From Asanoa ferruginea (GTDB lineage: Bacteria > Actinomycetota > Actinomycetes > Mycobacteriales > Micromonosporaceae): a stretch of DNA of 64,000 bases. Shown here piece by piece: positions 1,475 through 22,316 of the stretch. The DNA is taken from the NCBI RefSeq assembly GCF_003387075.1, contig NZ_QUMQ01000001.1, positions 2,232,001-2,296,000 on the forward strand, given 5' to 3'. Positions within the stretch are counted from its first letter, which is position 1; every line of letters begins with the position of its first letter. Below the pieces are notes generated by a model. That model made no database searches. It worked only from the letters and a program-made list of their open reading frames with translations, and was not told the DNA's origin. A program made the translations under genes and the position numbers.

Positions 1475-4400
1475 CGCACCTCCCACCAGACCGTCACCGT
1501 CTTCCCCGACTCAACTTCGCGGCTAAGTCGGTTTGTCAGTTCATCCAGGCCAGTACCGTCAAAGATCTCCATCCGCGCGTTCGCGCGCTCCCGATCGCGC
1601 CTTTCTCGCTCTTCCTTCTCCTTCAGCTCCCGATCACGCTTTTCTCGCTCTTCCTTCTCCTTTCGTCGCCTCTCTTCCTGCTCCGGATCGATCTGTGCGA
1701 TGTGGCGAGCGGCGGCATTACCCGCGTTTCGGAGAGCTTCGACGAGATCCTTGGCGTTCTGTTCATGGCGTGCGGCCATCTCGAGCCGCTCGACGATTTC
1801 CGCGGCCCCTGTGTCAGACGGAGTTAGCGTCCGGATCACATGGATCAGTGGCCATTGTGCGCCCGCGAGGGCGTCGATGACGGCACCGGCGGACTTGAAG
1901 GCCCTGCCCGCGACCGCGTCGTCGACATCGCCGACGTCGGCCCGAGCGACACGAGCGATCAGGTCGACGTCATCGGACTCGCCAGAAAGCTCCTTGAGCA
2001 GCCGTGCGACCCGCCGGGCGGTTGCAAGCCGACCGGTCGTCGCGTCGACGTCAAGGCCCAGCGCGTCGGCATTCCGCTCCAGCTCACGTGCGAGCACATC
2101 GGCGCTGGCTGCCTGGGCCCTGGCCTCCGCGCGGACCATGCTGGCGAACACGCCAAGGTTTCCCGCGCTACGCCATGCCGGGGGCTGTTTGCCGAAGAGA
2201 CCCTGTGTCCGCGTGCGAGCTTCGCTCCAGGTCTGCTCGTCGGGCAAGGGGATCTGGCGCAGTTCCATCGCATCGTCGACAGCTTGGACGCTGTCGACAG
2301 GGACCTTACTGCCGTGATGGAACCACGCGAGCTGTTGCTCCTCGGCAAAGACAGCGAGAATTGCGTTCTGCAGATCGCGCTCGAACCCTCGTGGTTTCTC
2401 CTGATCGAGGAGAGGCCGGAGCACGTGAATTGGGAAATGCTCCTTGTACCCCTGCTTCGACGCTTCCTGCAGAAGGTGACCACTCCACCAGCACGTAGAC
2501 ATCGTGAGCACGTACCGGTGCTCATGTAGCTCGCCCAGCCGGAGCTGGTTGCAGATCCGGCGAATCGTCCGCTGGTCGGCGGTGTCGACGGCGATGCCCT
2601 TGGTCGGCTCGGCGGCGGCCAACCGCGCGTACTTGAGTACCTTGGCCAACTCGGCCCGCGTAATCGACTTCTCGTCGTCGGGCAAGGCCGGGATGCCCGG
2701 ATAGGACCAGGCGAGGAGCGTCCCGGTCAGGTTCTGGAACGCGTCGCGCAACGTGCCGCCGCGCGGGTCACCGAGGCGAAGGCCGTGGGCGAGCGTATGC
2801 AGGATCGGCACGGCGTCGCTCTCGACGTTGGCCGGGTGAGGTGCCGCGGCCCCGTACGCCTGCTTGAACGCATCCGTGATCGCGACCCGCAACTGCTGCT
2901 GCCGCTGCTGGAGGTAGACCTTGCCCTGCTGCCGGTCGGCGACCGACCAGTCGGCCGCGAGCTGTGTGAGCCTGTCGCCGTTGCCACCACCCAGCAGATA
3001 GTTGATCTTCGCGAGCTGGGCGACCCGGCCCATGACGTCGTCGGTGAGGAACAGCGGCATCCACAGCACCGTGCGGTGCCCGCGTTCGAGGGTCTCGATG
3101 CGCGCGAAGTCCTCGTTGCGGCGGTGTCCCGGGTCGAACGGGTAGTCGACGACGATCCGCCAGGCGTCGCCGTGGCCGATGAGCGCGGAGTCTGGCATTG
3201 AGTCCTTGTCGCGGACGTTGCCGAACCGCACCTGGATGGGGTGTTTGCGGCCGCGCCACTCGCGCGCGTACGGAAGCTCGCCGAAGGTGCCGTCGCGAAG
3301 TTCGAGGCCGAGTTCGCCGCTGACCAGCTCGCGTACGAGCTGTTGCAGGACGCCGGAGGCGGTCTCGTTGTGCGGCACAAGGTCGAGAAGCCGGTCGTAG
3401 TCCACCGACGCCAGCGTCACCGAGATGACCGGGTCCGGGCCCTCGCCTATGTGGAGCTGGCCGGCGTCGGCCGCGAGTCGGCGCAGCCGATCGAGCACGA
3501 TCTGGTTCTCGTAGCCAGGAATTGGTGTAGCGATCGAGCCGAAATTCAACGCGTGCAACTTCGCCGCGGTCAGGTTGTGAAGCGCCGGCACCTCCGCGAC
3601 GAGCGCGCCGAGGATCAGCGTCTTGACCAGCCGATCGTCGAGGGCGAACAGCTCGTGGTGTGGTGCCTCGGCCTCCCCAATCCCGTGCGTGGCAAGCAGC
3701 AGCGGCCGGAACTTGTGCAGGTAGGTGTCGCGGCCAGCCTGGAACAGTTGCTTGAGCTCGGGCCGGTCGGGCAACTCGCCGCGCAGCACCAGCGGCTCGA
3801 ACAACGCCGCCACGCCGATCAGGTCGTTGACCGCGAGCGTGTTGCGCCGCTCGACGAGCAGCTCGGTCATTACCTTGAGGGCGGTCCGCTCGCGCTGAAG
3901 CGCCTGGGAGAGCGCGACTAGCGTGGCCACGAGTGCCGGCGAGAATGGATAGAGACGCCGGAACGAGGCCGCGTCGGAGCCGATCCCGGCGTCGCCGTAC
4001 TGGTCGCCCAGCAGGAGAACATCCCACACCTCGCGCCGGCCACGAACCGCCGAAAACGCCTGGTCGATGATCGCCTTCGCGTTGCCGTCGTTGGGTTTGA
4101 GCAGCCGCTTCTCGGTGATCTCCGGGAGGTTGGTGTCGGCGAGCACGATGTCTTGACCCAGCCGACCCTGGACACTGCGCATCACATCGGCGAGCGCGGC
4201 ACGCTCGGTGCCGCCGACCTGCGGGCCGAGGAAGTCTTCGAGGTTGCGCTGCCGTGCAATGAACGACGCGATCGGAAGGGGCCGCGCGGTGTCCGACGAC
4301 TCGACCAGCTTGTTGAGCTTCGCGCCCTCGGTCTGCACGAACGTGTGGTCGGCGATCTTCGTCGAGAGCCAGAGGATCAGCTCGTCGAGGAAGAACACCA

Positions 4401-5172
4401 TCGCGTCGTAGTTGAGATCTTTGGCGTGTCGGGTAATCACCGCAAGCCCGGTATCGAGATCGAGGTATTCGCCCCCGCGCACCGCACCCGTGAAGAACGT
4501 GCTCATCAGGGCGCTGACCAGCGCGTCGCGTTCCTTCGTGCCGGGCGCTGATGCGGCGGCACGCTCGTAGCTGTCCGCGGTCCAGCCCGCGGACTGCGCG
4601 CGCAAGACGGCCAGCCCCGACCCGCTGCCGCCGGGCGTCATCCCGGTGCCGCGAAGGCGGTCGAAGAACTTTTCGTCGCCGAGGTCCGCGCGCAGCTTCG
4701 CCGCGTCTCGCAGAAGCCCATCTGAGAGGTGTACGGCTGGCGGCGGCGCCTCAGGATGCAGAGCGGTGATCTGCCGCAGGTATCCCTCGAGGATCGCCTG
4801 CTCGGTCGAGCGCGCGTCGAGCATGTGGAAGGTCAGACTGAGGACGCGCTTGCCGTGTAACCACTCGTCGGCCTTGGCGACCGGCTCGCCGAGGCTGCGC
4901 ACCGACCGGGCCTCGGCGTTGTGCGCCAAGATCTCGCGGAGCACGGCCATGAAGTGCGACTTACCGGAACCGAACGAGCCGTGCAGGAACTTCGCCTGCG
5001 ACCGGCCGCTCGTCACCGCGTGCCCGACCATGCTGAGCGCCTCGTCGAAGTTACGCCGCAGGTCGTCGGTGACCACATAGCGGCGCAGGTCAGCGCCCTC
5101 CGACGCCCGCACCACGAAGTCGGCGTCGCCGACCGACGTCGGGATCTCGATGAGTTCGCGCAGCAATGTCAT
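1471..5172 (-). CDS. pglY: BREX-2 P-loop ATPase PglY
   Basis: A 1233-residue ATPase whose start (ATG at 5172) overlaps the pglX stop by 4 bases. A Walker A motif, GSFGSGKS, is at residues 65-72, and a Walker B-like hydrophobic strand (MVFFLDEL) lies near residue 260. The C-terminus (about residues 1170-1210) is a highly charged Glu/Lys/Arg coiled-coil stretch. Size, the early P-loop and the neighbours pglX and pglZ match the large ATPase of type 2 BREX/Pgl systems, which is essential for phage growth limitation in Streptomyces. It probably drives assembly or movement of the complex on DNA; the exact mechanism is not established. The frame is intact, so the protein is likely functional. Confidence 0.93.
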   Translation of the reverse strand: MTLLRELIEIPTSVGDADFVVRASEGADLRRYVVTDDLRRNFDEALSMVGHAVTSGRSQAKFLHGSFGSGKSHFMAVLREILAHNAEARSVRSLGEPVAKADEWLHGKRVLSLTFHMLDARSTEQAILEGYLRQITALHPEAPPPAVHLSDGLLRDAAKLRADLGDEKFFDRLRGTGMTPGGSGSGLAVLRAQSAGWTADSYERAAASAPGTKERDALVSALMSTFFTGAVRGGEYLDLDTGLAVITRHAKDLNYDAMVFFLDELILWLSTKIADHTFVQTEGAKLNKLVESSDTARPLPIASFIARQRNLEDFLGPQVGGTERAALADVMRSVQGRLGQDIVLADTNLPEITEKRLLKPNDGNAKAIIDQAFSAVRGRREVWDVLLLGDQYGDAGIGSDAASFRRLYPFSPALVATLVALSQALQRERTALKVMTELLVERRNTLAVNDLIGVAALFEPLVLRGELPDRPELKQLFQAGRDTYLHKFRPLLLATHGIGEAEAPHHELFALDDRLVKTLILGALVAEVPALHNLTAAKLHALNFGSIATPIPGYENQIVLDRLRRLAADAGQLHIGEGPDPVISVTLASVDYDRLLDLVPHNETASGVLQQLVRELVSGELGLELRDGTFGELPYAREWRGRKHPIQVRFGNVRDKDSMPDSALIGHGDAWRIVVDYPFDPGHRRNEDFARIETLERGHRTVLWMPLFLTDDVMGRVAQLAKINYLLGGGNGDRLTQLAADWSVADRQQGKVYLQQRQQQLRVAITDAFKQAYGAAAPHPANVESDAVPILHTLAHGLRLGDPRGGTLRDAFQNLTGTLLAWSYPGIPALPDDEKSITRAELAKVLKYARLAAAEPTKGIAVDTADQRTIRRICNQLRLGELHEHRYVLTMSTCWWSGHLLQEASKQGYKEHFPIHVLRPLLDQEKPRGFERDLQNAILAVFAEEQQLAWFHHGSKVPVDSVQAVDDAMELRQIPLPDEQTWSEARTRTQGLFGKQPPAWRSAGNLGVFASMVRAEARAQAASADVLARELERNADALGLDVDATTGRLATARRVARLLKELSGESDDVDLIARVARADVGDVDDAVAGRAFKSAGAVIDALAGAQWPLIHVIRTLTPSDTGAAEIVERLEMAARHEQNAKDLVEALRNAGNAAARHIAQIDPEQEERRRKEKEEREKRDRELKEKEERERRDRERANARMEIFDGTGLDELTNRLSREVESGKTVTVWWEVR

Positions 5173-8100
5173 GCGGGCACCTCCACGCCCCTGATGGTGG
5201 CAAGGTCGGCCCGGTCGGCGTCAAGCGCGGCCAACTCGGTGTCGATCAAACCGGTGAAGAACTGCGCCGGGGTGCCCGGGAAGCCCGGACGCGGCTCACC
5301 ATGCCACTGGTGCAACCACGGCTCCAACTCGGCGATCCCCGCGAGCAGCGGTAGCAGCCGGTCGGCCTTCCACCCGCCCTGCGTCTTACGGTCCAGGTAG
5401 ATCGTCGCTAGCGCCTGAGCCTGTGCCAGGTGGTCCCAGCCGGCCCAGCCGATCAGTTCGGTGCCGTCACCGTCGCGACCGGCCTTCGGGTACGAGATGA
5501 ACCGCTCCTTCGGCACGTCGAGCTTGCCGCGGTTACGCCAGAAGCTCGCCTTCAGGAAGTCAGCCGACGTGTACTTCGCCGGCACCGGAATGTCGGCCTT
5601 CTCGCCGGCGTCCTCGCGGCGCTGCAACGCCCAGGTCCGCTCCCACTCGGCACGCTTTCGTAGGCCGGCCGGCTTGTAGCGCTGGCTCGGCAGGTAGGGC
5701 ACATATTCGTCGGCTACCAGCTTGCTCAAGGACTTGACCAGGTCGTGCTGGTCGGTCTGCATGTACAGGTCAAGCACCGACCTGAAGTCGTCGTCGTGCC
5801 GAACGCGGTCCGCGAGCTGCCCGATCGACAGCGGGGTGGGTGCACCTCCCCACAGCTCGGACGCTTCGAGACGGTCTAGAAGCCAGTTGCGCAGCGCCTC
5901 GTGCCGCATCGCGTCCCAGCCCTCAGTCGCCCACCGGCGCTTGTACTCGGGCCGCTCGATGAGCGCGATATTGCGGTCAGACTCGATGACCGCGATCCGC
6001 TTCTCCACCAATGCTCGGTACTCCGGAGACCAGTGCGCCGGCAGCTCGGTAACCGGGCTATATCCGTGGTGGTCAAACCAACGGGTCTTTGACACTCCGG
6101 CTTGCATCCGGCGCGCCAACATTATCTCGAACGCGCGCTCACCAAACTCTAGATCCGGCGGTTCATTCGCGGTCAACGCGGTCTCTAGCAAGCCGTAACG
6201 GCGATAAACATCCCAGTCCAACTCCTCCTGCAAAGCAATCATCTGCAGGCGGATAGATTGCCATTCACGCTCCGCAACATCCAATCCGCGCCTAGTTGGT
6301 ACGTCGGAGGTCGTAACCGCGGTCGGACTTGCCGCCATCAGTCGCTGACCAAGCAGATCAATCTCGCGACTCAGGACGTCCGGAAACGAATCCGGAAGGG
6401 GAAAGTTCTGCAATTTCGTGCCAGTGAACTCATAAAAGGAGTACCAGGGTTCAGGACTCCATCGGTTTCCGCCACCGCTGGTGTTATCTGCCCCAGTTTT
6501 TGCCTGGCACACTTGTTTGAGCCAGAAGCAGGCCGTAGAGCTATTCAGCACACCGAGAAGCCGCAGGTGTTCGTCCTCCGTCGCTCCCGCCGGGAGCTTG
6601 ATCACCGGGGCAGAACGACTAAAGACTTTTCCGCCGCGATCGAGAACAAAATTGTTGTGCGTTGCGACAAACGCAAACGATATAGATAGCGGCGCCCGGA
6701 ATCGGCCCGCGAAAAACATCGAATACTCAAACCACTTCAAACCACGCTGAAGTTGGGTTGCGCCATACGCGACCCGTTCGGACAGTATCCGCCGAGCCGG
6801 CCAGAGAAGTTCGATCAAAGACGAGCCCGCCACAGGCTCGAGGGAGTCCGCATCATAGGGCCACAAGCCGATCAGAGGCTCAATGATCGACCAGTCGCGC
6901 ACGACCTCGCCCTCAATCATCGGCAATCGTTGACCTGCCGGCACGGCTCTTCTCCGAAGGAGCCCTGCGCCCAACATGTAGGCGTTGTCCTCGCGTGTTA
7001 CAGCACCTGAGCCAATATCGACATTCCATTCACGAAGAACCGAATTCCGTTCAGATTCGAGGATCTCCATCACTCCAGAAGCGCCGCCACCGCTAAGACT
7101 CCAGGGGTGGCTCGCTAGGCGTGAGCGGTCGAGATCGGCGGCGCTGATCCATTCGGACTCGGAGTCGGGCCGGTCGATCTGGTCGACGATGGCTGCCCAG
7201 ACCAGACCGTTGGCAGGGTCGGCAGGCTGCCCGGGTTCGCCGCGGACGCCCAGCACCGCGCGGATTGACTCTGAGCGGCGACGCTTGTTCGCCCGGCCGA
7301 TCAGGATGACGGTCGGCGTCCCGTGGCCGGGGATGTAGGCGCCTGAGGTGTCGATGACCTCGGTCAGTTCGACCTGGAGCGCGAAGTACTCGTTGATCAG
7401 CTTGACGCCGAACTCTCGTTTCATGAAGCCGTTCGACGTGATCTGGCCGACGTAGCCGGCGCCGTCGCCGTTACCGTCGGCCCGCTTGGCAAGGTCGAAG
7501 AACCGCTTCGCGAACGGCACTGTCAGTTGGTACTGGCGGTGGCAGACATCCGAGTACAGCTCCCGGTAGACCTCGTTGCGTGCCCGGTCCTTGACCGTGA
7601 TGTACGGCGGATTGCCGACCACGACCGTGTACTGGCCAGGATTCAGGTAGTCACCAAGCTGCTTCGCGTCTTCTGTCCAGAACGGATACTCGGGTCGGTT
7701 CTCGAACGGCGCGAGAAGATCGCCCTGATGACGAGACCTCTCTCGCCACTCAAGAAGCGAGTCGCCGGCCGCCACACGAACCGGAAACTCTGTCGCGAGA
7801 TCGCGGTGACCGGACGCTTTCAGGCCGGCGATCATCAACCGGAACCGGGCGATGGCGACCGCGGCCGGGTTGATGTCGACACCGGTCACCTGCCTGAGCG
7901 CACGGTCCACCAACACGTTGGCTGGCGTGGCAGGTTCGCGTTCCTTCCAGCGGGTGAACAAGCGATCGAAAGCGCCGAGCAGGAAGTGGCCTGAGCCGCA
8001 GGTCGGGTCGATCACGCTCATGTTCGCGAGGCCGAACTCGCGGTAGGCAGGCTCGAAGGTCCGGTCGAGGATGAACTCCTCGACGAACTCCGGCGTCTGC

Positions 8101-8681
8101 AGCAACGCATATGTCTCGCGGGCGTGGGCCGAAAGGTCTTGGTAGAGATCGCCCAGGAACCGCGTCTCCAGGTCGGCCGACCGCAACGACAGCCAACCCG
8201 CACCCCGACGGAAGAAGTCCGACAACACCTCCGCCGCACGACCCGAAATCGCGAACCGCCACACCGGGTTGTGTTCGTCGAAGATCTTTGCAGTCGCCCC
8301 AGCCCCCCGCAGGTGGGCGAACGCCTCGCGCAGCCAGTGCCTGTCGTTGTGGGTCGGCGCCGCGATCAAGTAAGCCTGGCGACTCTGCAGGGCCACCTCG
8401 ACGGACGCGTGTTCCTCAGGCCCGCCGATCCACACCTCCCTCATCAGCGCGTTGTCTTCGCAGAAACGCACGAACACGCAACCCAGCACCCACGCGACCG
8501 CCGCCTGGTCGAGCACGTCCTCCAGCCACGACTCGTACGTCGCCGCCGTGCGCCGCGCAGCCCGCGCGTCGGCGTACTCCTTGCGCAGTTGAGAACTCAG
8601 CCCCTCATCGGCCGCAACCTGCATGCGGAGGTCTTCGACCAACAGACCTACCTGCTTTTGCAGGGGTGCGAGCGCGATCAC
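5169..8681 (-). CDS. pglX: BREX-2 adenine-specific DNA methyltransferase PglX
   Basis: A class I N6-adenine DNA methyltransferase of about 1170 residues. The SAM-binding motif DPTCGSGHFL is at residues 225-234 and the catalytic NPPY motif at 357-360, in the order expected for gamma-type enzymes. The long C-terminal part probably holds target recognition. I place the start at the GTG at 8681, because it overlaps the pglW stop as GTGA and matches the coupling of the other genes. An ATG 36 bases upstream (8717) would add 12 Arg-rich residues inside pglW. In Pgl/BREX systems the methylase marks self DNA and, in Streptomyces Pgl, is proposed to modify phage DNA. No frameshift is visible. In several systems this gene is phase-variable, but I see no homopolymer tract of the usual kind here. 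Confidence 0.93.
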   Translation of the reverse strand: MIALAPLQKQVGLLVEDLRMQVAADEGLSSQLRKEYADARAARRTAATYESWLEDVLDQAAVAWVLGCVFVRFCEDNALMREVWIGGPEEHASVEVALQSRQAYLIAAPTHNDRHWLREAFAHLRGAGATAKIFDEHNPVWRFAISGRAAEVLSDFFRRGAGWLSLRSADLETRFLGDLYQDLSAHARETYALLQTPEFVEEFILDRTFEPAYREFGLANMSVIDPTCGSGHFLLGAFDRLFTRWKEREPATPANVLVDRALRQVTGVDINPAAVAIARFRLMIAGLKASGHRDLATEFPVRVAAGDSLLEWRERSRHQGDLLAPFENRPEYPFWTEDAKQLGDYLNPGQYTVVVGNPPYITVKDRARNEVYRELYSDVCHRQYQLTVPFAKRFFDLAKRADGNGDGAGYVGQITSNGFMKREFGVKLINEYFALQVELTEVIDTSGAYIPGHGTPTVILIGRANKRRRSESIRAVLGVRGEPGQPADPANGLVWAAIVDQIDRPDSESEWISAADLDRSRLASHPWSLSGGGASGVMEILESERNSVLREWNVDIGSGAVTREDNAYMLGAGLLRRRAVPAGQRLPMIEGEVVRDWSIIEPLIGLWPYDADSLEPVAGSSLIELLWPARRILSERVAYGATQLQRGLKWFEYSMFFAGRFRAPLSISFAFVATHNNFVLDRGGKVFSRSAPVIKLPAGATEDEHLRLLGVLNSSTACFWLKQVCQAKTGADNTSGGGNRWSPEPWYSFYEFTGTKLQNFPLPDSFPDVLSREIDLLGQRLMAASPTAVTTSDVPTRRGLDVAEREWQSIRLQMIALQEELDWDVYRRYGLLETALTANEPPDLEFGERAFEIMLARRMQAGVSKTRWFDHHGYSPVTELPAHWSPEYRALVEKRIAVIESDRNIALIERPEYKRRWATEGWDAMRHEALRNWLLDRLEASELWGGAPTPLSIGQLADRVRHDDDFRSVLDLYMQTDQHDLVKSLSKLVADEYVPYLPSQRYKPAGLRKRAEWERTWALQRREDAGEKADIPVPAKYTSADFLKASFWRNRGKLDVPKERFISYPKAGRDGDGTELIGWAGWDHLAQAQALATIYLDRKTQGGWKADRLLPLLAGIAELEPWLHQWHGEPRPGFPGTPAQFFTGLIDTELAALDADRADLATIRGVEVPA

Positions 8682-11600
8682 GAGGCGATCCCTTCGGCGG
8701 CGGTGCGGAGCGGCCACGTTCCGGGCAGCCAGAGGGACTGGCTGGCCGGTGACGTGAGCGGCAGCTGGACGGCGTCGAGCATGGCAGGTTCGGGCCGGCG
8801 GGCGGGCACGAGTAGCAGTCGGGCACCGGCGCGCGGGCGGCTGGGATCGGCGAGTTCCTGGAGGATGCGCAGCTGGCCGTAGCGGGCGAGCGGCGCGAGA
8901 TCCGTCAACAGCAGTGGCGCGTCGATCGAGATCGCCTTAACAAGGCCCGGCATGACCTCGTGCGCCACGATCTCGGCGAGGCTACGGAAGTCGGGATCAT
9001 CCGCGCGTCCGCTATCGGCAGCGACGATCGCGTCCCACGGGAAGTCAAGTTCGCGGAGCCGACGCAGGATGTGCGCGGTGACGTTCAGCTCGGTGAGGCC
9101 GAGCCGATCGACGAGCGTCCTGCGAGCGCTGACAAAGCGGGCCATCGGCGCGAGGATCGCGAGGAACGCTCGTCGCTCGATCGCCGCTTGCAGCTTCGTC
9201 TCGGCCTCGACCGCATCGGCATGGTCGGCGAGCGGGCCGGTGCTCACCATGCGGGTGCTACTCGGGACGAGACTGGCCGACTTCGCCACGTACGCCTGAC
9301 GCCCGTCGTCCCAGAGCAGCGGCACCTCGCAGTTCACAAGCAACTGGTCGAGCTCGTAGCGCTGGCTGGGCAACGGCTGCGCCCGGGGAAAGCGGACGCG
9401 GACCCGGGAACGGAGCTGGTCGGCGCCCATCGTCTGGCCAAGAAGGCCGTTGCGGGCCAGACGCAGCGCACGCTCGGCGTCCATACCGACCGGATAGATC
9501 TGGCCCTGCGCGTTAACGTCGGCGACGTTGTTGCTCGCCGCCGCAGCGATCTGGAGCAATCGGACGTCGCTGACCGGAAGAGCGCCGCCGGGAGGAACGA
9601 TCCGCCGCAGCTCCTCTACCGCCCGCGTCCGCGTGTTCAGCGGATCGTCACCGGCAAGTTCGGCGGCTCGCCTGCCGAGCGAGACCGCGTACGCGAGCAA
9701 ATCGGCGGCGGTCGTCTCCGCGGTGGGATCTTCCGGCTCCCTGCCAACCAGGACCACGTCGGACGCGCGGAACCGCTGGATGGCCACCCGGGAATCGCCG
9801 CCGCGCGTGAGTTCGGTCTCGACGGCGGCCCGGACCAGGCCGATGGCTTGGGGGGTTCGTTTCGGCTCGTCGGAATACGAACCACGGGCTGCGATCAGGG
9901 CTTCGGCCAGTTCGCCGGCCGACATCACCCCGCCACGTGCCTCCAGGAGAGCCACCACCTCGTCCCGAACGGATTTGAGGTCGTCATTGCCCAGCCACCC
10001 CTTCGCCTGCTTGCGCAGCATCGTCGAGACCTGAGGCTGGGTGAGCCCGATCGCCGCGGCGGCGTCGGTCTGGGAGAGCCAGCCGAGATACCGGCCGTTC
10101 TCAACCGGCGACTGGCCGAGCACCGCCGCCAGCGACTCGTAGTCCTTGGCGCGCTGTCCGGGCAGCAGCCTCACCGAGATGGCCTCGATACCCTGGGCCC
10201 GGTGGAGACGCTCTTCCCGTACCTCCTCTTGAATCTCTTCCGGCAGGCGGGCCCGCAGCGCCCTGACCTGGGAAAGGATCTCCTTGCGTGTCGCGTCCGG
10301 CACGCCCTGGGCGCGGGTCAGCGCCGACGGCTCGTAGTCGAGCAGCTCGCCGATCGTGTGCACGCCGAGGCGTTCGAGCGCCGACCTGGCGCGGGCGGTC
10401 AGCCCGACCGCGTCGAGCAAGCTTTCCCGGGTGAGGCCACCGGCCGGCTCGGCCGGGATCGTCGGGATGTCCTTGAACATCGTGCGCCAGGCGTCGGCCA
10501 TCTCCTCGGCGGTGTCGAACCGTTGGCCGGAGTCACGGCGCAGCGCCCGGGCGAAGAACGCGGCGAGCCTGTCGGCGATCGCGGTGTCGAAGACCCCGGG
10601 GTCGATCGTCACCTCGTCGCTGATCGCGGCCGGGTTGGCGTTGTCTCCCCAGCGGGGCAGGCTGCCGGTCGCCATCTCGTAGAGGGTGACAGCGGCGGCG
10701 AACCGGTCGGCGGCCGCGTCGTAACGCATCCGCCGCGGCGGACCGAGGAACGGGTCGAGGTAGGGGTGCGTGCCGGCCGCGATCTGGTCGGCGGGCGCGG
10801 CGGCGAGCGAGAAATCGAAGACGCAGAGGTGAAGCTGCCGGTCTTTCGGGCGCGGCCGGGCCGCGAGGTTCGCGGGCTTCAGGTCGCGATGCCAGACGCC
10901 CTCACCCTCCAGGAAGTTCACGATGTCCATGAGGTCGCGCCCGTAGCGTTCGAGCAGGTCGAGCGCGAGCCTGCGGCCGCCGGAGAGCTCGTCGGCGAGG
11001 GTACGTTCGCCGGCGCTCTCCAGGACCAGGGCCGTTCGGCCGCCAATTACGACCGGACCTGTCACGAGCTCGGCCACCTGCCAGTGGTGGCGCATCGCTT
11101 TTAGCACGCCAGCCTCGGCGTCGAGGCGGTCTGCGTATTGCTCGTCGCGGGCGACCTTCAGCACCCGCGTCTTGGCGCCGTCCGGGGTCTCCTCGCTGAC
11201 CAGCAGTGCGGTGGCGGTGGCTCCCGTGCCCAGGCGGCGCAGCACGGTGAAGCCGCCCTCGAGCACGGTGCCCTTCTGCGCGTCGAGGGGATCGACCACC
11301 GGCTCCGGATCGGGCCTGGTCAGCTCCTCCCAGACATCATCGAGCCCGGCGTGGAACGCCGACGCGCTTTTCACCCGCTTGCTGGGGTTGCCGTGCGTGG
11401 CGTCGTAGACGAGCGTGAGCAGCGAGTTCGGAATGCCGTCCGCGACCGCGGCGAGATTTAGACCACCATCGTGTACGGCGGCGACAAGCTCCTCCGGGGT
11501 CGCTGCCGGCGGTTCGCCGCTGAAGATCCGATAGGCGAGCGCACCGAGCGAGAACACGTCCAGCTGCGTGCCGGGGACGTCGCCGTGATTAACCGCCTCG

Positions 11601-12799
11601 GGTGCCTGGTAGGCGCGGACCTCGTCGTCGAAGAAGAGCTCGAGCCCCGCGCCATCGGTCGACGTGCTCAGCTTCGTGACCTGGGTCGAGCCGGCCAACC
11701 GCCCGCCGGCCTGCCAGTCGGTCACAACGAGGGACGGCCGGGCAGAAGTCGGATTCGCCACGTAGATCGCGCGCGGGTTCAGCGCCCGGTGCGACAGGCG
11801 GCGCAGGTGGGCGTACCCGATGATCTCCGCGAGGTCCTGCACGATCTGGAGCCGCTGGGCAATGCTCAGTTTCGGACCGTACTCGACCAGCCAATGGTCG
11901 AGTCGTATCCAACTCGGGTCATGCTCGAAAACGACCGCAGGACCCCAGCCGTGCTCGTGCATGTCCAGGACACGCGCGATACCCGGGTGGTTGATGCCCT
12001 GAAGCAGACGAAACTCGCGCTCCGCCGCACGCCGGATAACAGGCACATCTTCGGCCGGCGCCCGGCTCGTCAGGTAGAACCGCACCCGGCGGACAAGGTT
12101 CTTGTGCATGACGTGCCCACCGAGGAAGTCCTGCCAGCCCAGGCCCTCGGCGAAAGGCTCGGGCAGAAGCAGCACCTGACCGACGGTCCGGTTGGCGACC
12201 GACGGCCGGATCCCGGCGCCCTTGACGAGCTCGACGATGCGCTTCCCGCGCGTGGCGTCGACGGCGTGACCCGGAGCGCGCGGGACGGCGAGCAGGAAAC
12301 CCCTCAGGCTCGGTAACCCGGAATCGTGGTTGTCCAGGCCATAGACGTGCTGACTGCCGATCTCGTCGAGGCGCGACCGCATGGAGCGGGCATGCAGGAA
12401 CACGGCGGCACCGACGTAAAGGCCGTCGTCGCCGCGGCCCTGCTGACGGGCGTAGTGGCGGATCAGGCCGGCGAGCCGCTTGGCCTTCCGGTTGGCTAGC
12501 ACGAGCGGGTTGGCCGCTGGCATGAGCCTTCCCCGGGGCATGCGCCGCACCCATTCGCCCTGGTTGCCCGAAATCTCGCCCAGCCAGTGTTTGAGCTCTA
12601 CGACGTAAAGGCCCGACCGGGTCAGCACTAGCGCGTCGACCTCATTGATGGAACCGTCGGTAGCGACGAACTCGACGTTGGCCCAGACATGGAAAGGGTC
12701 TGCGTCAGGAAGATAGGACGCCAACTCGCGGAGGCCGTCCTTCTCGTGGCCATACTCGCTCGGATTGACCTCTTCCCAACGTGGCGAGTCGTCACGCAC
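8678..12799 (-). CDS. pglW: BREX-2 serine/threonine kinase PglW with NERD domain
   Basis: First gene of the operon, 1373 residues, GTG start. It has an N-terminal NERD (nuclease-related) domain at about residues 35-135, with N52/E53/D55 and the E68-x-K70 pair. A first kinase-like domain (about 235-490) has a degenerate catalytic loop (HRALNP at 337-342) and DWQ in place of DFG, so it is probably a pseudokinase. A second kinase domain (about 515-775) carries K548, HRDLKPAN (637-644) and DFS (662-664) and is probably active. After it come a helix-hairpin-helix segment (about 795-860) and a sigma-region-4-like HTH (about 905-960, TDAAAAIGLTQPQV). PglW of Streptomyces autophosphorylates and is needed for phage growth limitation. 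It heads a W-X-Y-Z transcription unit whose promoter must lie in the gap to the integrase. Confidence 0.92.
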   Translation of the reverse strand: MRDDSPRWEEVNPSEYGHEKDGLRELASYLPDADPFHVWANVEFVATDGSINEVDALVLTRSGLYVVELKHWLGEISGNQGEWVRRMPRGRLMPAANPLVLANRKAKRLAGLIRHYARQQGRGDDGLYVGAAVFLHARSMRSRLDEIGSQHVYGLDNHDSGLPSLRGFLLAVPRAPGHAVDATRGKRIVELVKGAGIRPSVANRTVGQVLLLPEPFAEGLGWQDFLGGHVMHKNLVRRVRFYLTSRAPAEDVPVIRRAAEREFRLLQGINHPGIARVLDMHEHGWGPAVVFEHDPSWIRLDHWLVEYGPKLSIAQRLQIVQDLAEIIGYAHLRRLSHRALNPRAIYVANPTSARPSLVVTDWQAGGRLAGSTQVTKLSTSTDGAGLELFFDDEVRAYQAPEAVNHGDVPGTQLDVFSLGALAYRIFSGEPPAATPEELVAAVHDGGLNLAAVADGIPNSLLTLVYDATHGNPSKRVKSASAFHAGLDDVWEELTRPDPEPVVDPLDAQKGTVLEGGFTVLRRLGTGATATALLVSEETPDGAKTRVLKVARDEQYADRLDAEAGVLKAMRHHWQVAELVTGPVVIGGRTALVLESAGERTLADELSGGRRLALDLLERYGRDLMDIVNFLEGEGVWHRDLKPANLAARPRPKDRQLHLCVFDFSLAAAPADQIAAGTHPYLDPFLGPPRRMRYDAAADRFAAAVTLYEMATGSLPRWGDNANPAAISDEVTIDPGVFDTAIADRLAAFFARALRRDSGQRFDTAEEMADAWRTMFKDIPTIPAEPAGGLTRESLLDAVGLTARARSALERLGVHTIGELLDYEPSALTRAQGVPDATRKEILSQVRALRARLPEEIQEEVREERLHRAQGIEAISVRLLPGQRAKDYESLAAVLGQSPVENGRYLGWLSQTDAAAAIGLTQPQVSTMLRKQAKGWLGNDDLKSVRDEVVALLEARGGVMSAGELAEALIAARGSYSDEPKRTPQAIGLVRAAVETELTRGGDSRVAIQRFRASDVVLVGREPEDPTAETTAADLLAYAVSLGRRAAELAGDDPLNTRTRAVEELRRIVPPGGALPVSDVRLLQIAAAASNNVADVNAQGQIYPVGMDAERALRLARNGLLGQTMGADQLRSRVRVRFPRAQPLPSQRYELDQLLVNCEVPLLWDDGRQAYVAKSASLVPSSTRMVSTGPLADHADAVEAETKLQAAIERRAFLAILAPMARFVSARRTLVDRLGLTELNVTAHILRRLRELDFPWDAIVAADSGRADDPDFRSLAEIVAHEVMPGLVKAISIDAPLLLTDLAPLARYGQLRILQELADPSRPRAGARLLLVPARRPEPAMLDAVQLPLTSPASQSLWLPGTWPLRTAAEGIAS

Positions 12800-13314: not shown

Positions 13315-14841
13315 TCATCTGCTAGATGAGTTGCGTGGGCATGCGGTAGTCGGTGCCGCGCTAGTCGGCACGGAGGCCGACGTCGAGTTGAACTTGCCCC
13401 GTGGGATGAGATCGGCGGCGGCGGTGGCGCCGAAAATATGGCGCTCGGGCAGCACCGACACGTACGAGTCGGCGGTGAACTCCATCGCGGCGTGGCCCAA
13501 GGTTTCCTGGACCTCCTTTAGATCTCCGCCGGCGTGCCGAAGGTAGGTGGCCGCGCAGTGGCGCAGGTCGTGGAGGCGAACGGGCGGCATGCCACTGGAG
13601 CGCACGAGTTGGTCGAACCGGTCGGTCAGCTGCTTGGGATGCCACGCGGCCCCCGTGGGTTGGACGAAGAACAAGCCGTGGTCCGGCCAGGCCCTGGCCC
13701 GTCTTGCCCATTGGGCCCGCTCGGCGACGTATTCGCGCAGGACCGCGGCGGTGAGCCCGGCTAGTGGAAGTGTCCGGCGTGCGGCTGGGGTCTTCACCGG
13801 TTTGACGATCGTCTGGTAGCCAACGGTGGTGATGGTTTGGGTGATAACGATCTGGAGGTGGCCGAGGTCAACATCGCGGTCGAGTAGCCCGCAGGCCTCG
13901 CCCCGGCGCAGGCCACGGTGCAACATCAGGAGGAACATCGGATAGAGAGTCGGGCACGCCGTTTCGATGTGATCGAGGAACGCACCTGCCAGCGGCGGTG
14001 TCCACACCATCACCGGGCTCGGCCGCCGTCCGGTGCGCTTCCACTCTGCGACGTCCCGGTCTCGCCACACCCGCGCGCGGGGGCGTCGGGTGTCGGGGAG
14101 CTCGACGGCGGCGGCGGGGTTGTGTGGGATCAGATGATGTTTGCGGACAGCGTCGCTGAGGGCCTTGTGCAGGGTGGAATGAAGCTTGTGGAGGGTGGCG
14201 GCGGACAGTGGCCGCCGGCCGCGAACGCTCTGACGGATGTCCGGGTCGTCGCTGTTCCGCGCGGCCGCGATCTCGTTGCTCTGCGCGCCGATTGCGGCGT
14301 ACATGGCCTGGATGTGGGCGCAGGTGAGTTCCCGCAGCAAGAGGTGGCCGAGGTGTGGTCCGAGGTAGAGCCGAATGTGCTGGGCGTAGGAGTGGCGGGT
14401 AGTCGCGGCGACCTGGCGCCCGTCGAGCCACTCGATCAAGTAACGGCCGACCGTGAGCCCAGCGGTCGGTGCGACGATCGCCTGCAGATCTTGGGTCAGT
14501 ACGTCCCTGTCGGGGAACGGCGTGCCCGGGCGGTGCCGAACCAGCAGAGCGGCCACAGCCCGTTCCATCGTGGGATCGCCCCCGGCGACAGCGAGCAGGC
14601 TCTTCGCCTGGTCACGTTCGGCCTCGGCAGCCCGTCGGGTGGGAAAGCCGCTGTGCCGCAGCTGGCGGCGGGGCTCGCCATCGTCGACGGGTAGCTCGAG
14701 TTGGAAACCCCATACGCCATGGCGGCTGTTCCACCCACCGTCCGGGCCACGCAGCTTAGGACAGCGCGCACCCAACCGACGCCCGCTGTCTCCCTTGCAG
14801 GCGCACCGCTTGTAGACCGACCCGGACGAGGTTCCCCGCAT
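13315..14841 (-). CDS. Tyrosine site-specific integrase (phage/ICE type)
   Basis: A site-specific recombinase of about 508 residues. The C-terminal catalytic domain shows the tyrosine recombinase signature: Arg in HRGLRRGEACGL, the HxxR box in HDLRHCAATYLRHAGG, a downstream LGH, and the nucleophile Tyr in FTADSYV. An SAM-like N-terminal core-binding domain precedes it (TVGRYLIEWLDGRQVAATT...). I take the start at ATG 14841 (MRGTSSGSVYKR), typical of actinobacterial integrases. A longer frame reaches to 15030 but reads as non-protein-like sequence. The neighbouring excisionase-like gene upstream overlaps its start. It probably inserted part or all of the island. Whether it recognises the tRNA-Arg site at 33.8 kb is inference. 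Confidence 0.9.
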   Translation of the reverse strand: MRGTSSGSVYKRCACKGDSGRRLGARCPKLRGPDGGWNSRHGVWGFQLELPVDDGEPRRQLRHSGFPTRRAAEAERDQAKSLLAVAGGDPTMERAVAALLVRHRPGTPFPDRDVLTQDLQAIVAPTAGLTVGRYLIEWLDGRQVAATTRHSYAQHIRLYLGPHLGHLLLRELTCAHIQAMYAAIGAQSNEIAAARNSDDPDIRQSVRGRRPLSAATLHKLHSTLHKALSDAVRKHHLIPHNPAAAVELPDTRRPRARVWRDRDVAEWKRTGRRPSPVMVWTPPLAGAFLDHIETACPTLYPMFLLMLHRGLRRGEACGLLDRDVDLGHLQIVITQTITTVGYQTIVKPVKTPAARRTLPLAGLTAAVLREYVAERAQWARRARAWPDHGLFFVQPTGAAWHPKQLTDRFDQLVRSSGMPPVRLHDLRHCAATYLRHAGGDLKEVQETLGHAAMEFTADSYVSVLPERHIFGATAAADLIPRGKFNSTSASVPTSAAPTTACPRNSSSR

Positions 14842-15199
14842 CTGTGGCGCCCGCAGCGCTTCCGGCTTTTCCGGTGGTAACCATCGGGGAGCAGCCGACC
14901 GCGCCGACCAGGTCCACTCGCCGCTTCTCATCCGAGACGTTGCGGTTTTCGTCCGGCCCAGGCGATGCACCGTCGCGGTCGAGGCCGAGCAACGCAAGTA
15001 TTGGCGCGGTGGGAACGCGGTAGCGGTCACCGACCCGAATCAGCGGGACCGGGAAACAGCCCCGGCGCACCAAGTCATACCCGACACTGCGCGAAATCTG
15101 GAAGATCGCTGACGCCGTCGGAACATCGGTCACCACGCCGAGCTGGTGCACCCGCTCGGCTGTCCACACCCGGACGCCCACATCCGCTGTCCCAACCAC
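14756..15199 (-). CDS. Excisionase-like helix-turn-helix DNA-binding protein
   Basis: A 147-residue protein with an N-terminal AlpA/excisionase-type winged HTH (about residues 15-70: VTDVPTASAIFQISRSVGYDLVRRGCFPVPLIRVGDRYRVPT). The C-terminal half is low-complexity. It sits directly upstream of the integrase and its 3' end overlaps the integrase start by 86 bases, the usual xis-int layout of actinomycete integrative elements. In the family such proteins steer integrase toward excision and may repress the operon. The true C-terminus is uncertain because the overlap with the integrase is longer than usual. Confidence 0.72.
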   Translation of the reverse strand: MVGTADVGVRVWTAERVHQLGVVTDVPTASAIFQISRSVGYDLVRRGCFPVPLIRVGDRYRVPTAPILALLGLDRDGASPGPDENRNVSDEKRRVDLVGAVGCSPMVTTGKAGSAAGATDAGNLVRVGLQAVRLQGRQRASVGCALS

Positions 15200-16976: not shown

Positions 16977-18524
16977 ATGACCACCGCCTCCACCGATCCA
17001 ACGTCCAGTCCGGTCCCTGCTCGGTCCAGCGTGGCGGGTCCGAGCTGGTGTGAGCCTGGATTGGTCGCCCGCGCTGGCAGATATCCACTCGCAGTCGAAG
17101 CGCCGGTAATGGCGGCAGTCGACATGCTCGTCCCGGGCGTGTCGACGGTGACACCGTATGCCCGTTACTACGGACTCTATTGGGCTCTGTCAGCACACGC
17201 AGAGGCCCTCGGCCTGGACCGCGAGCGTTGCCAGCGATTGATCCGCCGGGCAGAAGTCGGCATGGCGCGGATCTCCCAGGCATACGACACGCCTGACCAC
17301 CCAGCCGGAATCAGCCACGGCGTGAACGCGCTTGCTCGGCTCGCTCCCGCCGAAGGCAGCGAGTTCGCGGTGGCAGACAGCACCGGTGCGGGTTCATACT
17401 CACCGCGCTCCTGGGGCTTTTGGTCGCAGTACAACGGTCCAAGTGTCGCGATGGGCACCGTCGCCCTTGACGGCGGCGCTCTGCGGGCCGGCCGTCACCG
17501 GTGTCCGGCGGAGGTTCTGGCAATGTACGCGCCCCTTTTCGCCGTCGCAGAGAAAGGAGCGGGACTCATCTTGCCCGCATCGGCGTTCGAACGGCTGAGT
17601 CTCCAGTACAAGGAGGAAACTCCCGACCTTGCACCGTTGCGTGACGTCTTCACCGCAACCGTCGACGGTCGGCACGACCCAGCGGCGTGGACTGCCGAGG
17701 ACCGGACGCGAAGGGCCACCCTTCGTTTGCTTGCCCGTTCGTGGCAACTACACCCGCAGGCGAAGACCTGGTTGGACGCGCTTGCGGACGGAGTCGTATT
17801 CGGATCGAAGGCACGGGAAGACCCGGTGTTCGCCACGGAGGACCGGGCTGCCGCATGGCGCGGCGTCGTGCTGCGGCACCAATCAGTAGGTGCGTGGCGC
17901 CGTCTGTGGGCGGATCTCGTGCGAGTGGTTCTCGACACGGATCGCGCGTCGCGTCACCATCTCCACGAGTGGATCAGCGACGTCCTGCCCGACAGCACCG
18001 TGACCAACTTCGAATCAGGCCTACCGCCGACGATCGATGCACAAGGCGATCCATACCCGGCTGAACGTGCCATCACCAGCGAGAGGGCCAGTGCGGCAAC
18101 AAACGTAGCCGTACTCCTCCTCGGGGCATGCAGGCTGAAAACTTTGAGCGGCATCAGCCTGCGCAGCTTCGCCGGGCGGCGACCCACCTATTTGGATCCC
18201 ACCTGGATCGCCCAGCTACGGAAGGATTTTAGAAACCGACCACTTGCCGAGCTCGGACGCAGGCTCGTCGACGACATGCTGGCACAGTCCCGGCGAGTCG
18301 CGTTACGCAAAGTGACGGTCAAATCCGACGGCACGATCAACTTATTCAGCCGCCTCCACGAGCGTAACGGCGCCTATTTCGCCGACTCGCCCGAAGGTCG
18401 CGACAACATTGGTCTTCGCATCCCCCAGCTGGCTGAAATCGCAACGCAGATCCGGCTGTTCACCCACGATCGGACGCAGCCGCTAACGGCGCGCGGGCGG
18501 GAGTTACTGGAGCTGCCAGCATGA
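16977..18524 (+). CDS. Unrecognised 515-residue protein, first gene of a coupled two-gene operon
   Basis: I do not recognise this family. It is a soluble protein with no signal peptide and no membrane segment. The N-terminal 30 residues are Ser/Pro/Thr-rich and probably disordered. The folded part begins near residue 40 (LAVEAPVMAAVDMLVPGVSTVTPYARYYGLYWAL) and is rich in Trp, Tyr and Arg, like mixed helical domains. There is no P-loop, helicase, kinase, nuclease or methylase motif that I can see. Its stop overlaps the start of the next gene as ATGA (18521-18524), so the two products are probably made in fixed ratio and act together. It begins 200 bases from a divergent serine recombinase remnant and lies in a defence-rich island. 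Its job is unknown; it may be a partner or sensor for the PLD-like protein. Confidence 0.8.
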   Translation: MTTASTDPTSSPVPARSSVAGPSWCEPGLVARAGRYPLAVEAPVMAAVDMLVPGVSTVTPYARYYGLYWALSAHAEALGLDRERCQRLIRRAEVGMARISQAYDTPDHPAGISHGVNALARLAPAEGSEFAVADSTGAGSYSPRSWGFWSQYNGPSVAMGTVALDGGALRAGRHRCPAEVLAMYAPLFAVAEKGAGLILPASAFERLSLQYKEETPDLAPLRDVFTATVDGRHDPAAWTAEDRTRRATLRLLARSWQLHPQAKTWLDALADGVVFGSKAREDPVFATEDRAAAWRGVVLRHQSVGAWRRLWADLVRVVLDTDRASRHHLHEWISDVLPDSTVTNFESGLPPTIDAQGDPYPAERAITSERASAATNVAVLLLGACRLKTLSGISLRSFAGRRPTYLDPTWIAQLRKDFRNRPLAELGRRLVDDMLAQSRRVALRKVTVKSDGTINLFSRLHERNGAYFADSPEGRDNIGLRIPQLAEIATQIRLFTHDRTQPLTARGRELLELPA

Positions 18525-21154
18525 GCGGAGTGGCGCACACCATCCGCTCGCCGCTGACCCTGTTGGAGCAGTGGCGGGACCGGGCCGACCGAGCTCCGCT
18601 GCGCGAGATGATCATCATGGGGTACACGGTCGACCTCAGCTTTCTCGAGAAGTTCGTAGTTCCGACGGCACGAGGTCTTGGTGCTCGCATCACGGTCCTC
18701 GGAGACCCCGCGCAGGCCGTACACGACGACGTGGACGTGCGGCGGGCAGGCACGGCGTACCAGCATGGACATGCGGCGTGTAGGCGTGCGTTCCATCCAA
18801 AGCTCGTTGTTCTCGCCGGCGACGAGGACAACGCCCTTGCAGTGGGATCGGGCAACCCGACTCTGTCAGGCTGGGGCTACAACCGTGAGCTGTGGGTTAT
18901 CGCCCACGGTTCCCGCGAAGTGGGCCCACAGCTCATCGCCGATGTTGCGGACTGGCTTCAAGAGCTGCCGACCGTGGTGACGATCGCGAGCTGGATCGCG
19001 GGGACACTACAAGCCGTGGCCGACCAGATACGGCCGACATCGATTGACACCCGCTGGGCTTCAACCAGGGCTTACGGGAACCTGCTACGACCGCTCCTGG
19101 AGCGGATACCTGACCAATCGGTGGAGGAGCTGCGCCTTGCCGCTCCCTTCTTCGACCCGCCCGCGGAGGCGGTAAAAGCCTTGGTCATGAGGACCCGGCC
19201 GCGCGTCGCACGGATCGCGGTGCAACCCTCTGCCGCCCGATTCGACGGCGCGGCGATCGCCCAAGCCACCTCGTCTGCCGGCAACGTGGAATTCAGGCTT
19301 GTCCAACCCGGGGCACTCCGGCACGGCAAGCTCATCGAATGGGAGGCCGGCGGCAGCGTCGCTGGCATGACCGGCAGCGCGAATATCACCTCGTCCGCAC
19401 TGCTGATGACCACCTCAGGGGGCGGCAACTGCGAGCTGACAGTCGTCGCACCCCACTTCTCACCTCTGCTACCTGATGGCGACCTTACGGCTGACATCGT
19501 CTTCCGGACCATGGCAGCGGATCCGCTCCCGCCAACCGCATCGGAAGGCTCAGCACCAGCGTTGCTTGGCTGCGCAATCACCGATGGCATCCTCGTTGTC
19601 GAGCTAGCTTCACCCGCAATCGACCCGATCCTCATCGAATTCTCGCCATCGGCGGTCCCGGGCAGCTGGGAGACCGCGGGGACGATCGCTGCTGGGCTGA
19701 GCAAGGCCCGGTTTCTGGTCCCCGAGGTGTCTGGCGGCGCGATCCGCGCGGTCATCGACGTCAACGGGACGCGACACGAGTCGACCGTCGTTTTCATCAC
19801 CGACCCAATCCGCTGCCGACCGCGCAGCGATATCCCAGACGAGCCACGGCTATCACGGGCCTACGAGACCGACGATCTCTTTACCGACCCGCTTATCGCC
19901 CAACGATTCACTGTCGATCTTGAGCGCCTGGTGGAACTAGTCAGCGCCACGAACACGCCCGCCCCAGCCTCCAGCAACAAGCGACTGGATGTCAGAGAGG
20001 CTTCGGCCGATCGATGGGCCGACTACCTGGACGCATGCGACCGCCGGCTCGGGCCAGCCCTGTCCCAACTCATCTTCCCCCGCAGGCTGAGCGCCACGGT
20101 CACCACCAGCTCCGCAGATTGGGCCATCGACGATACCGACGACAACGAGGTCACAGATGACGAGGATGAAACAGTCCTCGATGACATCGCCCAGGACCAC
20201 GCGACTTTCTCGGCCCGATCTGACGCAGCCATCCGCCCCGACCAACGCCGCCGGTACCGCCGCTTCGGAGCCCAATGGGCTGCGTTCGCCACCGGACCGC
20301 GCGCTCAGCATGCCAACCGGTCGTCGCTGCCACCCATCTACATACGCATGACGATTGCGGCGCTGTACCTGACGCTGCTCGCCGAAGGCGTGTGGCGGGA
20401 AGACGAGGACTGGAGACGCGACCTGCGTTGGCTGGTGTGGGCCCTCATACCTGATGACGAGGTCCTCGATGAACTTCCGGCCGAAGCCTTCGATCACCTC
20501 TTCGCACTCCTAGCCGTTGCCATGGCGACGTTACGCCAGGGCACGACGCTGTACGGCGGCCGGCAAGGGGACCTGTACGCCACAGACGCCTGGCGCGATG
20601 CCAGCGAATGGGTCGCAGAAGCAAACGCTGAGCTGGCCGAGGAACGACTCCTTCCCTCGACGCGCCCCTACGCGATCGTCAGCAGCCCCGTTGAGGTTTG
20701 GGACACCATCCTCCTAGCTGGACAAACCAAGCTAGACCCGTACGCCGAGGCAAGAGAAAATCTCGCAGAAGCCGGTCTGAACGCCCGCAGGGAAGCAGAC
20801 ATCTGGTGGGTGGACGGGCCAGGCAATGCTTACCACACGGCAGCTCGGGCAGTCACTGCGCTCAGTAGGGTCTCGGGCCACGCAGTCGTGGTAGCGAGGA
20901 GTGCGCGGCAAACCGTGCTGATCGCCCTAGCCAACAACGTTATGGCTCTGGCCGACCAGGCGCGCGTCTGGCGGATCTATCCACTCTCTAGCACCAGGAC
21001 GCCTGTATCCCTCACCTCAGGAAGTCCGGGCCCGCCACCAGGCGCGCAGGTGATCCCTTTCGCACGACAAACTCCCGCAGAGGTGCGGAATCTCAGCGAC
21101 CTCGTAGGCGTCGACTTGACCGCTGTCGCCGAGCGCATCCGGTCGACCCTGTAA
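18521..21154 (+). CDS. Phospholipase D-superfamily (putative nuclease) protein, 877 residues
   Basis: The N-terminal 300 residues hold two PLD-like half-sites: H92-x-K94 followed by GSGN at 109-112, and H268-x-K270 followed by GSAN at 285-288. Two HxK...GSxN halves in one chain is the layout of PLD-superfamily nucleases and phosphodiesterases. The Asp of the classical HKD motif is present only loosely in the first half (GDED) and is not obvious in the second. The remaining 570 residues match no domain I know; residues 535-565 are very acidic (DDTDDNEVTDDEDET). It is translationally coupled to the 515-residue gene. DrmC of DISARM is also PLD-like, but no DISARM helicase or DUF1998 gene is present. 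DNA cleavage or processing is the likely activity; a defence role is inference from context. Confidence 0.82.
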   Translation: MSGVAHTIRSPLTLLEQWRDRADRAPLREMIIMGYTVDLSFLEKFVVPTARGLGARITVLGDPAQAVHDDVDVRRAGTAYQHGHAACRRAFHPKLVVLAGDEDNALAVGSGNPTLSGWGYNRELWVIAHGSREVGPQLIADVADWLQELPTVVTIASWIAGTLQAVADQIRPTSIDTRWASTRAYGNLLRPLLERIPDQSVEELRLAAPFFDPPAEAVKALVMRTRPRVARIAVQPSAARFDGAAIAQATSSAGNVEFRLVQPGALRHGKLIEWEAGGSVAGMTGSANITSSALLMTTSGGGNCELTVVAPHFSPLLPDGDLTADIVFRTMAADPLPPTASEGSAPALLGCAITDGILVVELASPAIDPILIEFSPSAVPGSWETAGTIAAGLSKARFLVPEVSGGAIRAVIDVNGTRHESTVVFITDPIRCRPRSDIPDEPRLSRAYETDDLFTDPLIAQRFTVDLERLVELVSATNTPAPASSNKRLDVREASADRWADYLDACDRRLGPALSQLIFPRRLSATVTTSSADWAIDDTDDNEVTDDEDETVLDDIAQDHATFSARSDAAIRPDQRRRYRRFGAQWAAFATGPRAQHANRSSLPPIYIRMTIAALYLTLLAEGVWREDEDWRRDLRWLVWALIPDDEVLDELPAEAFDHLFALLAVAMATLRQGTTLYGGRQGDLYATDAWRDASEWVAEANAELAEERLLPSTRPYAIVSSPVEVWDTILLAGQTKLDPYAEARENLAEAGLNARREADIWWVDGPGNAYHTAARAVTALSRVSGHAVVVARSARQTVLIALANNVMALADQARVWRIYPLSSTRTPVSLTSGSPGPPPGAQVIPFARQTPAEVRNLSDLVGVDLTAVAERIRSTL

Positions 21155-21635: not shown

Positions 21636-22316
21636 GTGGGAGCCGTACTGCTGCTGGTTGTGGGGGCATTCGTTACGCCGGTGGGGACCAAACTGATTGA
21701 TCGGCTTTTTCCGTCGGAAGGAACCTTGGAGATCGTCGACCTTGCCGTCGAGGACGTGGGCAGTGCAGCAGTTCTAGATATTTCGGTGCAGAACAGGGGA
21801 ACCGCACGCGTGGTCTCGAGGCGTGCTTCAATCAGAGTCGAGCGGTTTACGCAGATTCGCGTGTGCAACACTCAAGGCGAGCTCGAAGTCACTGGAGAGT
21901 ACGATCTTTCTCTTCCGTCGCCCGCCGACGTCGGCTACACAGCGTCCAAGAAACTGAATCAGCAGGTCGGTGCTGATGAGGCTGACCGCTTCCAAGTCAG
22001 ACTCCAAAACAAAGATCAAAAGAAACCGCATACCGTCTCTTTCTATGGCTTGGACGTTACCATCGAAACTAACGGCAGTCCCCCCTCTATTCATGCAGGA
22101 AAAGCAATGGTCGCATTGCCTTTAGTTCCGAGCAACACTGACGCCGGCTGGTATTGGAGCTCTCGGTTCGTGCGAGAACCGCTGGACTGGCTCGGGCCAC
22201 AGCAGGCAGCGGTTGAAGCCTGCATGCACGGCAATAGCCGCGCAATGCAAGAATTTTTGACGGGCCCAGGCGTTTTATCTGAGGCGCTGTTAAACCTCCG
22301 GTCCGACCTTCTGTAG
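21636..22316 (+). CDS. Small membrane-anchored protein of unknown function
   Basis: A 226-residue protein, start at GTG 21636, the only plausible start in frame (the frame is open upstream to a TAG at 21546 but lacks a start codon there). The N-terminus is one hydrophobic segment (GAVLLLVVGAFVTPVG, residues 2-17) acting as anchor. The remainder (residues 25-190) looks like a beta-rich extracytoplasmic or cytoplasmic domain (LEIVDLAVEDVGSAAVLDISVQNRG) similar in feel to immunoglobulin-like folds. G+C is clearly lower than in neighbours, a sign of recent acquisition. I cannot name a family. It stands alone in its transcription unit. Confidence 0.6.
   Translation: MGAVLLLVVGAFVTPVGTKLIDRLFPSEGTLEIVDLAVEDVGSAAVLDISVQNRGTARVVSRRASIRVERFTQIRVCNTQGELEVTGEYDLSLPSPADVGYTASKKLNQQVGADEADRFQVRLQNKDQKKPHTVSFYGLDVTIETNGSPPSIHAGKAMVALPLVPSNTDAGWYWSSRFVREPLDWLGPQQAAVEACMHGNSRAMQEFLTGPGVLSEALLNLRSDLL

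Follow-up and report, generated by a model that had tools for sequence, protein, structure and literature searches.

The question addressed here is the role of two adjoining genes, A and B, in a 64,000-nucleotide stretch of the Asanoa ferruginea genome (contig NZ_QUMQ01000001.1, positions 2,232,001 to 2,296,000 of the forward strand), referred to below as the window. The first-pass annotation of this DNA had described two genes overlapping as ATGA beside bacteriophage exclusion (BREX) and recombinase genes, and had taken them for a candidate undescribed anti-phage or anti-plasmid system. Both open reading frames (ORFs) were present, joined by the ATGA overlap. On the evidence below, A-B is probably a two-gene mobile prokaryotic defence module, a relative of the Azaca system without ZacC, in which A would recognise or gate and B would cut nucleic acid. 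The features of the pair are as follows.

16977..18524, + strand: gene A, an ORF of 515 aa with an ATG start; putative remote ZacA/DUF6361 homologue in its N-terminal part
18521..21154, + strand: gene B, an ORF of 877 aa with an ATG start; phospholipase D (PLD)/HKD family; putative remote ZacB homologue over residues ~13-320
18794..18856, + strand: PLD half-site 1 of B, HPK 92-94 to GSGN 109-112 (H92, K94)
19322..19384, + strand: PLD half-site 2 of B, HGK 268-270 to GSAN 285-288 (H268, K270)
20108..20197, + strand: acidic stretch of B, residues 530-559

An AGGA motif is present 11 nt 5' of the ATG start codon of A. A-B has a G+C content of 64.7-64.8%, whereas the window past position 23000 has 69.1%, a difference in keeping with an acquired island.

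The sequence of B places it in the PLD superfamily. The Pfam family PLDc_2 was matched above its gathering cut-off (29.8 bits vs 27) in two stretches, and the two HxK...GSxN half-sites reported at first pass were both identified in the one chain (H92/K94/GSGN and H268/K270/GSAN). PLD-family nucleases build one active site from two half-sites. B is accordingly taken here to be a putative single-chain PLD-family phosphodiesterase, in which two HxK...GSxN...E half-sites would make one active site and which would most likely cut invader nucleic acid. The very acidic patch was also found, with D or E at 14 of the 30 positions starting at 530, and the C-terminal ~550 residues (after ~320) have a content without an assigned family. 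In an alignment of 79 B sequences, window included, 78 were readable, the sequence from locus L052 being a fragment; H92, K94, S110, E123, H268, K270, G285, S286 and E305 were invariant in all 78.

The first-pass view that A carries no recognisable motif was upheld. No Pfam, PADLOC or PHROGs family was matched at the thresholds applied, and the sole NCBIfam match was at chance level (E 0.37). An AlphaFold2 model built from 35 sequences (mean predicted local distance difference test score 89.6, predicted template modelling score 0.87) was predominantly helical; residues 1-27 were disordered, and strands clustered near 454-469. A Foldseek comparison of the model with the Protein Data Bank (PDB) returned 60 matches at E ≤ 10, of which the best had E 1.5 (template modelling score 0.10) and none reached E ≤ 0.001; no convincing match to a solved structure came from sequence searches with A or B. 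The modelled A is a candidate new fold relative to PDB structures, the only ones compared. The invariant columns among 35 A sequences were rich in arginine, leucine, glycine and tryptophan and included H114, E93, E363 and E473, a set that fits binding or gating, with catalysis also possible.

The pairing of A and B is near-obligate. Sixty-four genome loci were collected with patterns from an alignment of A (A3), and thus found through A, and a B homologue lay directly after A in 62 of them, so that the earlier description of a fixed pair of an unknown and a PLD-type protein was well founded. In 41 of the 62, the calculated overlap is 4 or 8 bases; elsewhere, the B frame extends farther in the 5' direction, or the genes overlap or are spaced by another number of bases. 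B was incomplete in two of the 62 (L027, at a contig end, and L052, broken). The two exceptions were a contig that stops 42 bases past A (L078) and a locus in which only fragments of A remain and B is absent (L090). In a class-wide draw, A was present in 9 of 394 genomes, with an intact B in seven, window included; of the others, L025 had B in two frames and L026 a 120-residue fragment of A and no B. The window A matched 7 of 72,556 plasmid records, with B adjoining A in all six that were inspected and a B match at adjacent coordinates in the seventh. A proteobacterial version of A (P0009) matched 15 records; of the eight inspected besides its own, seven had an overlapping second gene of the size of B, and the other, L114, was a fragment of A. 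A search with B gave 26 matching records, and A was adjacent in all five new ones picked among the matches listed; three of these five had the reversed order, B before A (L121, L123 and L124). In L113, also matched by the B search, both genes were present with A in two pieces. The pairing thus persists despite a change of gene order, which argues for a functional unit. Of the reversed loci, two are on Rhizobium plasmids and one is on a Sphingomonas plasmid.

Relatives of the pair were found in Actinomycetota, Pseudomonadota and Bacteroidota. The ratios of nonsynonymous to synonymous substitution rates in 12 chosen pairs of relatives were 0.14-0.26 for A and 0.15-0.34 for B and, taken with the occurrence in several phyla, indicate that the pair is more than a chance arrangement. 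The distances of A and B were correlated (r 0.98, 74 loci), as those of linked genes may be. No conserved third gene was found in the neighbour clusters of 72 loci, where A and B were present in 70-72 and the next cluster in 16; neighbouring genes were predicted from position-specific GC content by a simple procedure, so that small genes may have been missed and start positions are approximate. The proteobacterial A had no match among 50,697 phage records at E ≤ 1e-3, none of the 26 viral stretches that matched the A3 patterns was confirmed, and no PHROGs match was found for the eight proteins scanned.

Two tightly linked genes, with A first in most loci, carried on plasmids and occasionally leaving remnants of A without a detected B (L090, L026, L114), could also describe a toxin-antitoxin or abortive module, in which a toxic nuclease B is restrained by A and freed on infection or on loss of the locus. 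We regard this as distinctly unlikely, given that toxins and antitoxins are typically far smaller than A and B, that the gene order is reversed in three loci, and that A is conserved at least as well as B.

We then considered the relationship of the pair to Azaca, in which, in the present search, zacA, zacB and zacC were consecutive in L099, L100 and L102, and whose loci were found in 7 of 296 genomes. In L099, ZacA corresponds to Pfam DUF6361, ZacB to PLDc_2 and ZacC to a DEAD/Helicase_C protein. The PADLOC model for ZacB was matched by all five B proteins scanned (E 6e-14 to 7e-8; window B 9.9e-11), and a profile comparison of B with ZacB (hhalign) gave a probability of 97.5 (E 8e-12) over the PLD region, consistent with remote kinship. 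For A and ZacA, hhalign gave a probability of 66 (E 5.5e-5) over 65 N-terminal columns; the cross controls A-ZacB and B-ZacA gave 0.1, the best of 24 neighbour clusters compared with A gave 0.9 and a reversed ZacA gave 0.3. When the ZacA model was searched against 1066 targets, 27 rows of A proteins (L007 being entered twice) stood ahead of the first other protein, although individual E-values were weak (best 2.4e-4, window A 0.015) and other proteins were interspersed lower down; the ZacB model placed 19 rows of B proteins on top (best 1.7e-9). The PADLOC ZacA model was matched by two of the five A proteins scanned (E about 1e-3), and the window A was matched by neither Pfam DUF6361 nor PADLOC ZacA at E ≤ 1. 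ZacC, sought with three queries in the 80 pair loci, gave no match that reached E ≤ 1e-10 and covered 30% or more of the query.

By these comparisons, A and B look remotely homologous to ZacA and ZacB, in a locus that falls outside Azaca proper. The likeness lies in an A-type gene followed by a PLD gene, in the same order and with overlapping ORFs. The differences are that no ZacC was found near the pair, without which it is not an ordinary Azaca; that A is ~100 aa longer than ZacA and unrecognised by the DUF6361 and ZacA models; and that B past ~320 gave no alignment with ZacB. One genome (G268) carries an A-B pair and Azaca separately (L024 and L102). The suggestion of an undescribed system holds in that no description of the pair was found, and gives way in that the pair has a described relative, since A and B appear to be remote homologues of the first two Azaca genes in the same order. 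Azaca reportedly protects against phages, in work attributed to Millman et al. 2022. In the parts of the following sources that were available, Azaca is said to include a PLD-like domain (PMC10952713), ZacC is counted among defence helicases (PMC12278908), and Azaca stands among the systems whose mechanism is unknown (PMC10482375).

The genomic surroundings of the pair were analysed in the flanks of 80 loci (~10 kb, but 14 kb for six loci on plasmids, and shorter at contig ends). An HsdR homologue was near 17 of the 80 pair loci and BREX type 2 (BREX-2) genes near 4 of the 80. Among whole class genomes, an HsdR type was present in at least 26 of 148 and PglY in at least 15 of 148, base rates that are possibly low, with at most 4-5 candidates scored per genome; the presence of A in 9 of 394 class genomes and of PglY in 15 of 148 are separate counts and not a per-genome overlap. 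As a rough estimate, either HsdR or BREX-2 would turn up in about one in a thousand random 20-kb stretches. The data support a location of the pair near defence genes more often than the base rates suggest.

Several of these loci have the pair placed inside another gene set. L019, L040 and L045 carry A, B, pglY and pglZ on the same strand, the gap from B to pglY measuring 114 to 141 bases, and in L019 and L040 pglX and a pglW-type gene lie upstream of A-B. Between pglX and A, L019 carries a gene for an 818-aa protein (6307-8763) with no Pfam or PADLOC match, and L040 three small predicted genes, one of them on the other strand. A Myroides plasmid has the gene order hsdM-hsdS-A-B-hsdR. Elsewhere, the pair follows Zorya genes, coming after the SNF2 gene of Zorya (one locus), another SNF2 gene with one gene in between (one locus), Qat-like genes (Qat being our reading of the annotation), or hsdMSR and two genes (one locus), and in another locus it is near GajA.

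Some neighbours of the pair were also noted in their own right. In a Prevotella plasmid (L111), a protein of ~913 aa with no PADLOC match is encoded between hsdR and A (5618-8359). In a Sphingobium plasmid (L109, 3994-8867), an SNF2 gene and a gene for a 587-aa protein without a PADLOC match precede the pair and may form a separate two-gene unit. Six loci of a Streptomyces clade (L005, L069, L070, L072, L075 and L085) have a homologue of a CHAT-domain gene, so named in the annotation of L005, ~150 bases past B on the opposite strand.

In the window itself, the pair is preceded by the following genes.

1471..5172, - strand: pglY of BREX type 2, by family profile matches
5169..8717, - strand: pglX of BREX type 2, by family profile matches
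8678..12799, - strand: pglW of BREX type 2, by family profile matches
13315..15030, - strand: tyrosine recombinase, between the BREX-2 genes and A-B

The genes pglZ, brxD and brxHI lie beyond the left edge of the window, so that the BREX type 2 locus, covering 1-12799 of the window and 7322-13487 of locus L010, is complete; its genes in the window are on the strand opposite to A-B. Two overlapping ORFs in different frames were present on the minus strand at 15321-16439 and 16361-16777; judged by eye, we take the region 15321-16777 to be a serine-recombinase-like protein split in two, which looks broken. On the 3' side of B, a 226-aa ORF (21636-22316, + strand) has a G+C content of 55.9% and no Pfam or NCBIfam match.

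The positions between hsdS and hsdR and between pglX and pglY raise the idea of a plug-in effector, in which A-B docks on a neighbouring translocase or sensor (HsdR, BREX-2, ZorD or a DrmD-like helicase) and supplies the cutting, a mechanism compatible with the defence module proposed here. The loci in which the pair follows the Zorya SNF2 gene or, with one gene between, another SNF2 gene, and the one in which it precedes a DrmD-like helicase (L034), would agree with such docking, as would the failure to find ZacC near the pair, whereas Azaca loci carry one. We consider it unlikely, as 59 of the 80 loci had neither HsdR nor BREX-2 in their flanks, the host systems differ in kind, which makes a single docking surface hard to envisage, and the BREX-2 genes of the window are on the other strand. 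An extended form of the idea, which we think unlikely, is a portable cassette that plugs into unrelated DNA-tracking defences (type I restriction-modification (RM), BREX-2 and Zorya); the new-fold A would sense an engaged translocase or a DNA product, B would destroy DNA, and Azaca would be such a cassette with a captured helicase.

A role outside defence was also weighed, in which a DNA-repair, plasmid-maintenance or lipid-processing pair rides in islands. PLD folds have many substrates, and at many loci none of the defence families searched for was recognised beside the pair. Such a role is nevertheless very unlikely in view of the positions inside RM and BREX gene sets, the kinship to Azaca proteins and the patchy occurrence (9 of 394 class genomes).

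A number of observations weigh against the proposed defence module. The 59 of 80 loci without an HsdR homologue or BREX-2 within the flanks count here also, other defence families having been scanned for in some neighbours only. Some of the associations are inherited, with eight RM rows belonging to one Streptomyces/Actinacidiphila clade; on a tree of 77 A proteins (L084 lying outside), the BREX-2 label required 4 changes and the RM label 10. Helicases of other families are found near some pairs, such as the DrmD-like gene directly after B in L034; in L059, an upstream helicase gene had a local ZacC match, its best match being DrmD. The kinship of A to ZacA rests on ~65 N-terminal residues, and the window A was not among the two of five A proteins that matched PADLOC ZacA. 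Finally, PLD-fold enzymes may act on lipids or other phosphodiesters.

On balance, defence through nucleic-acid cleavage is judged the most likely role. A would be the structured partner, possibly in a complex with B, that recognises a target or an infection state and holds or activates the nuclease. The module is proposed to act as its own unit, sometimes carried within or beside type I RM, BREX-2, Zorya or Qat-like operons, and the embedded copies probably serve as a second line of defence. As the pair has no methyltransferase or helicase of its own, self and non-self would have to be told apart otherwise than by its own mark, or infected cells would be targeted.

Other known systems were compared with the pair. 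BREX type 2 is its neighbour in the window and encloses it between pglX and pglY in L019 and L040; however, BREX-2 genes were near only 4 of the 80 pair loci, and the pair thus does not appear to depend on them. The DrmC protein of the DISARM system (defence island system associated with restriction-modification) is, like B, of the PLD/HKD family, and weak local PADLOC DrmC matches were seen in two B relatives. In contrast, B is long and holds both half-sites, and no DrmA or DrmB was found directly beside the window B, whose direct neighbours are A and the unmatched 226-aa ORF. The available part of PMC12839542, on BREX auxiliary effectors, likewise considers that BREX loci can carry additional nucleases, and assigns HKD nucleases to BrxL (type 1) and to the N-terminal end of the type-2 BR helicase; neither Azaca nor DUF6361 is mentioned in its main text as far as that was available. 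Within the literature searched, a scope that left out most subscription journals, no title or abstract described the A-B pair and DUF6361 or PF19888 was not mentioned.

The results provide a likely identity for two protein families from Actinomycetota, Pseudomonadota and Bacteroidota that are mostly annotated as 'hypothetical' in the records inspected. They also set Azaca within a wider family, the minimal core of which may be a ZacA-like protein and a PLD protein. As this core occurs naturally inside gene sets of BREX-2 and of type I RM, such loci would allow cooperation between defence systems to be tested directly.

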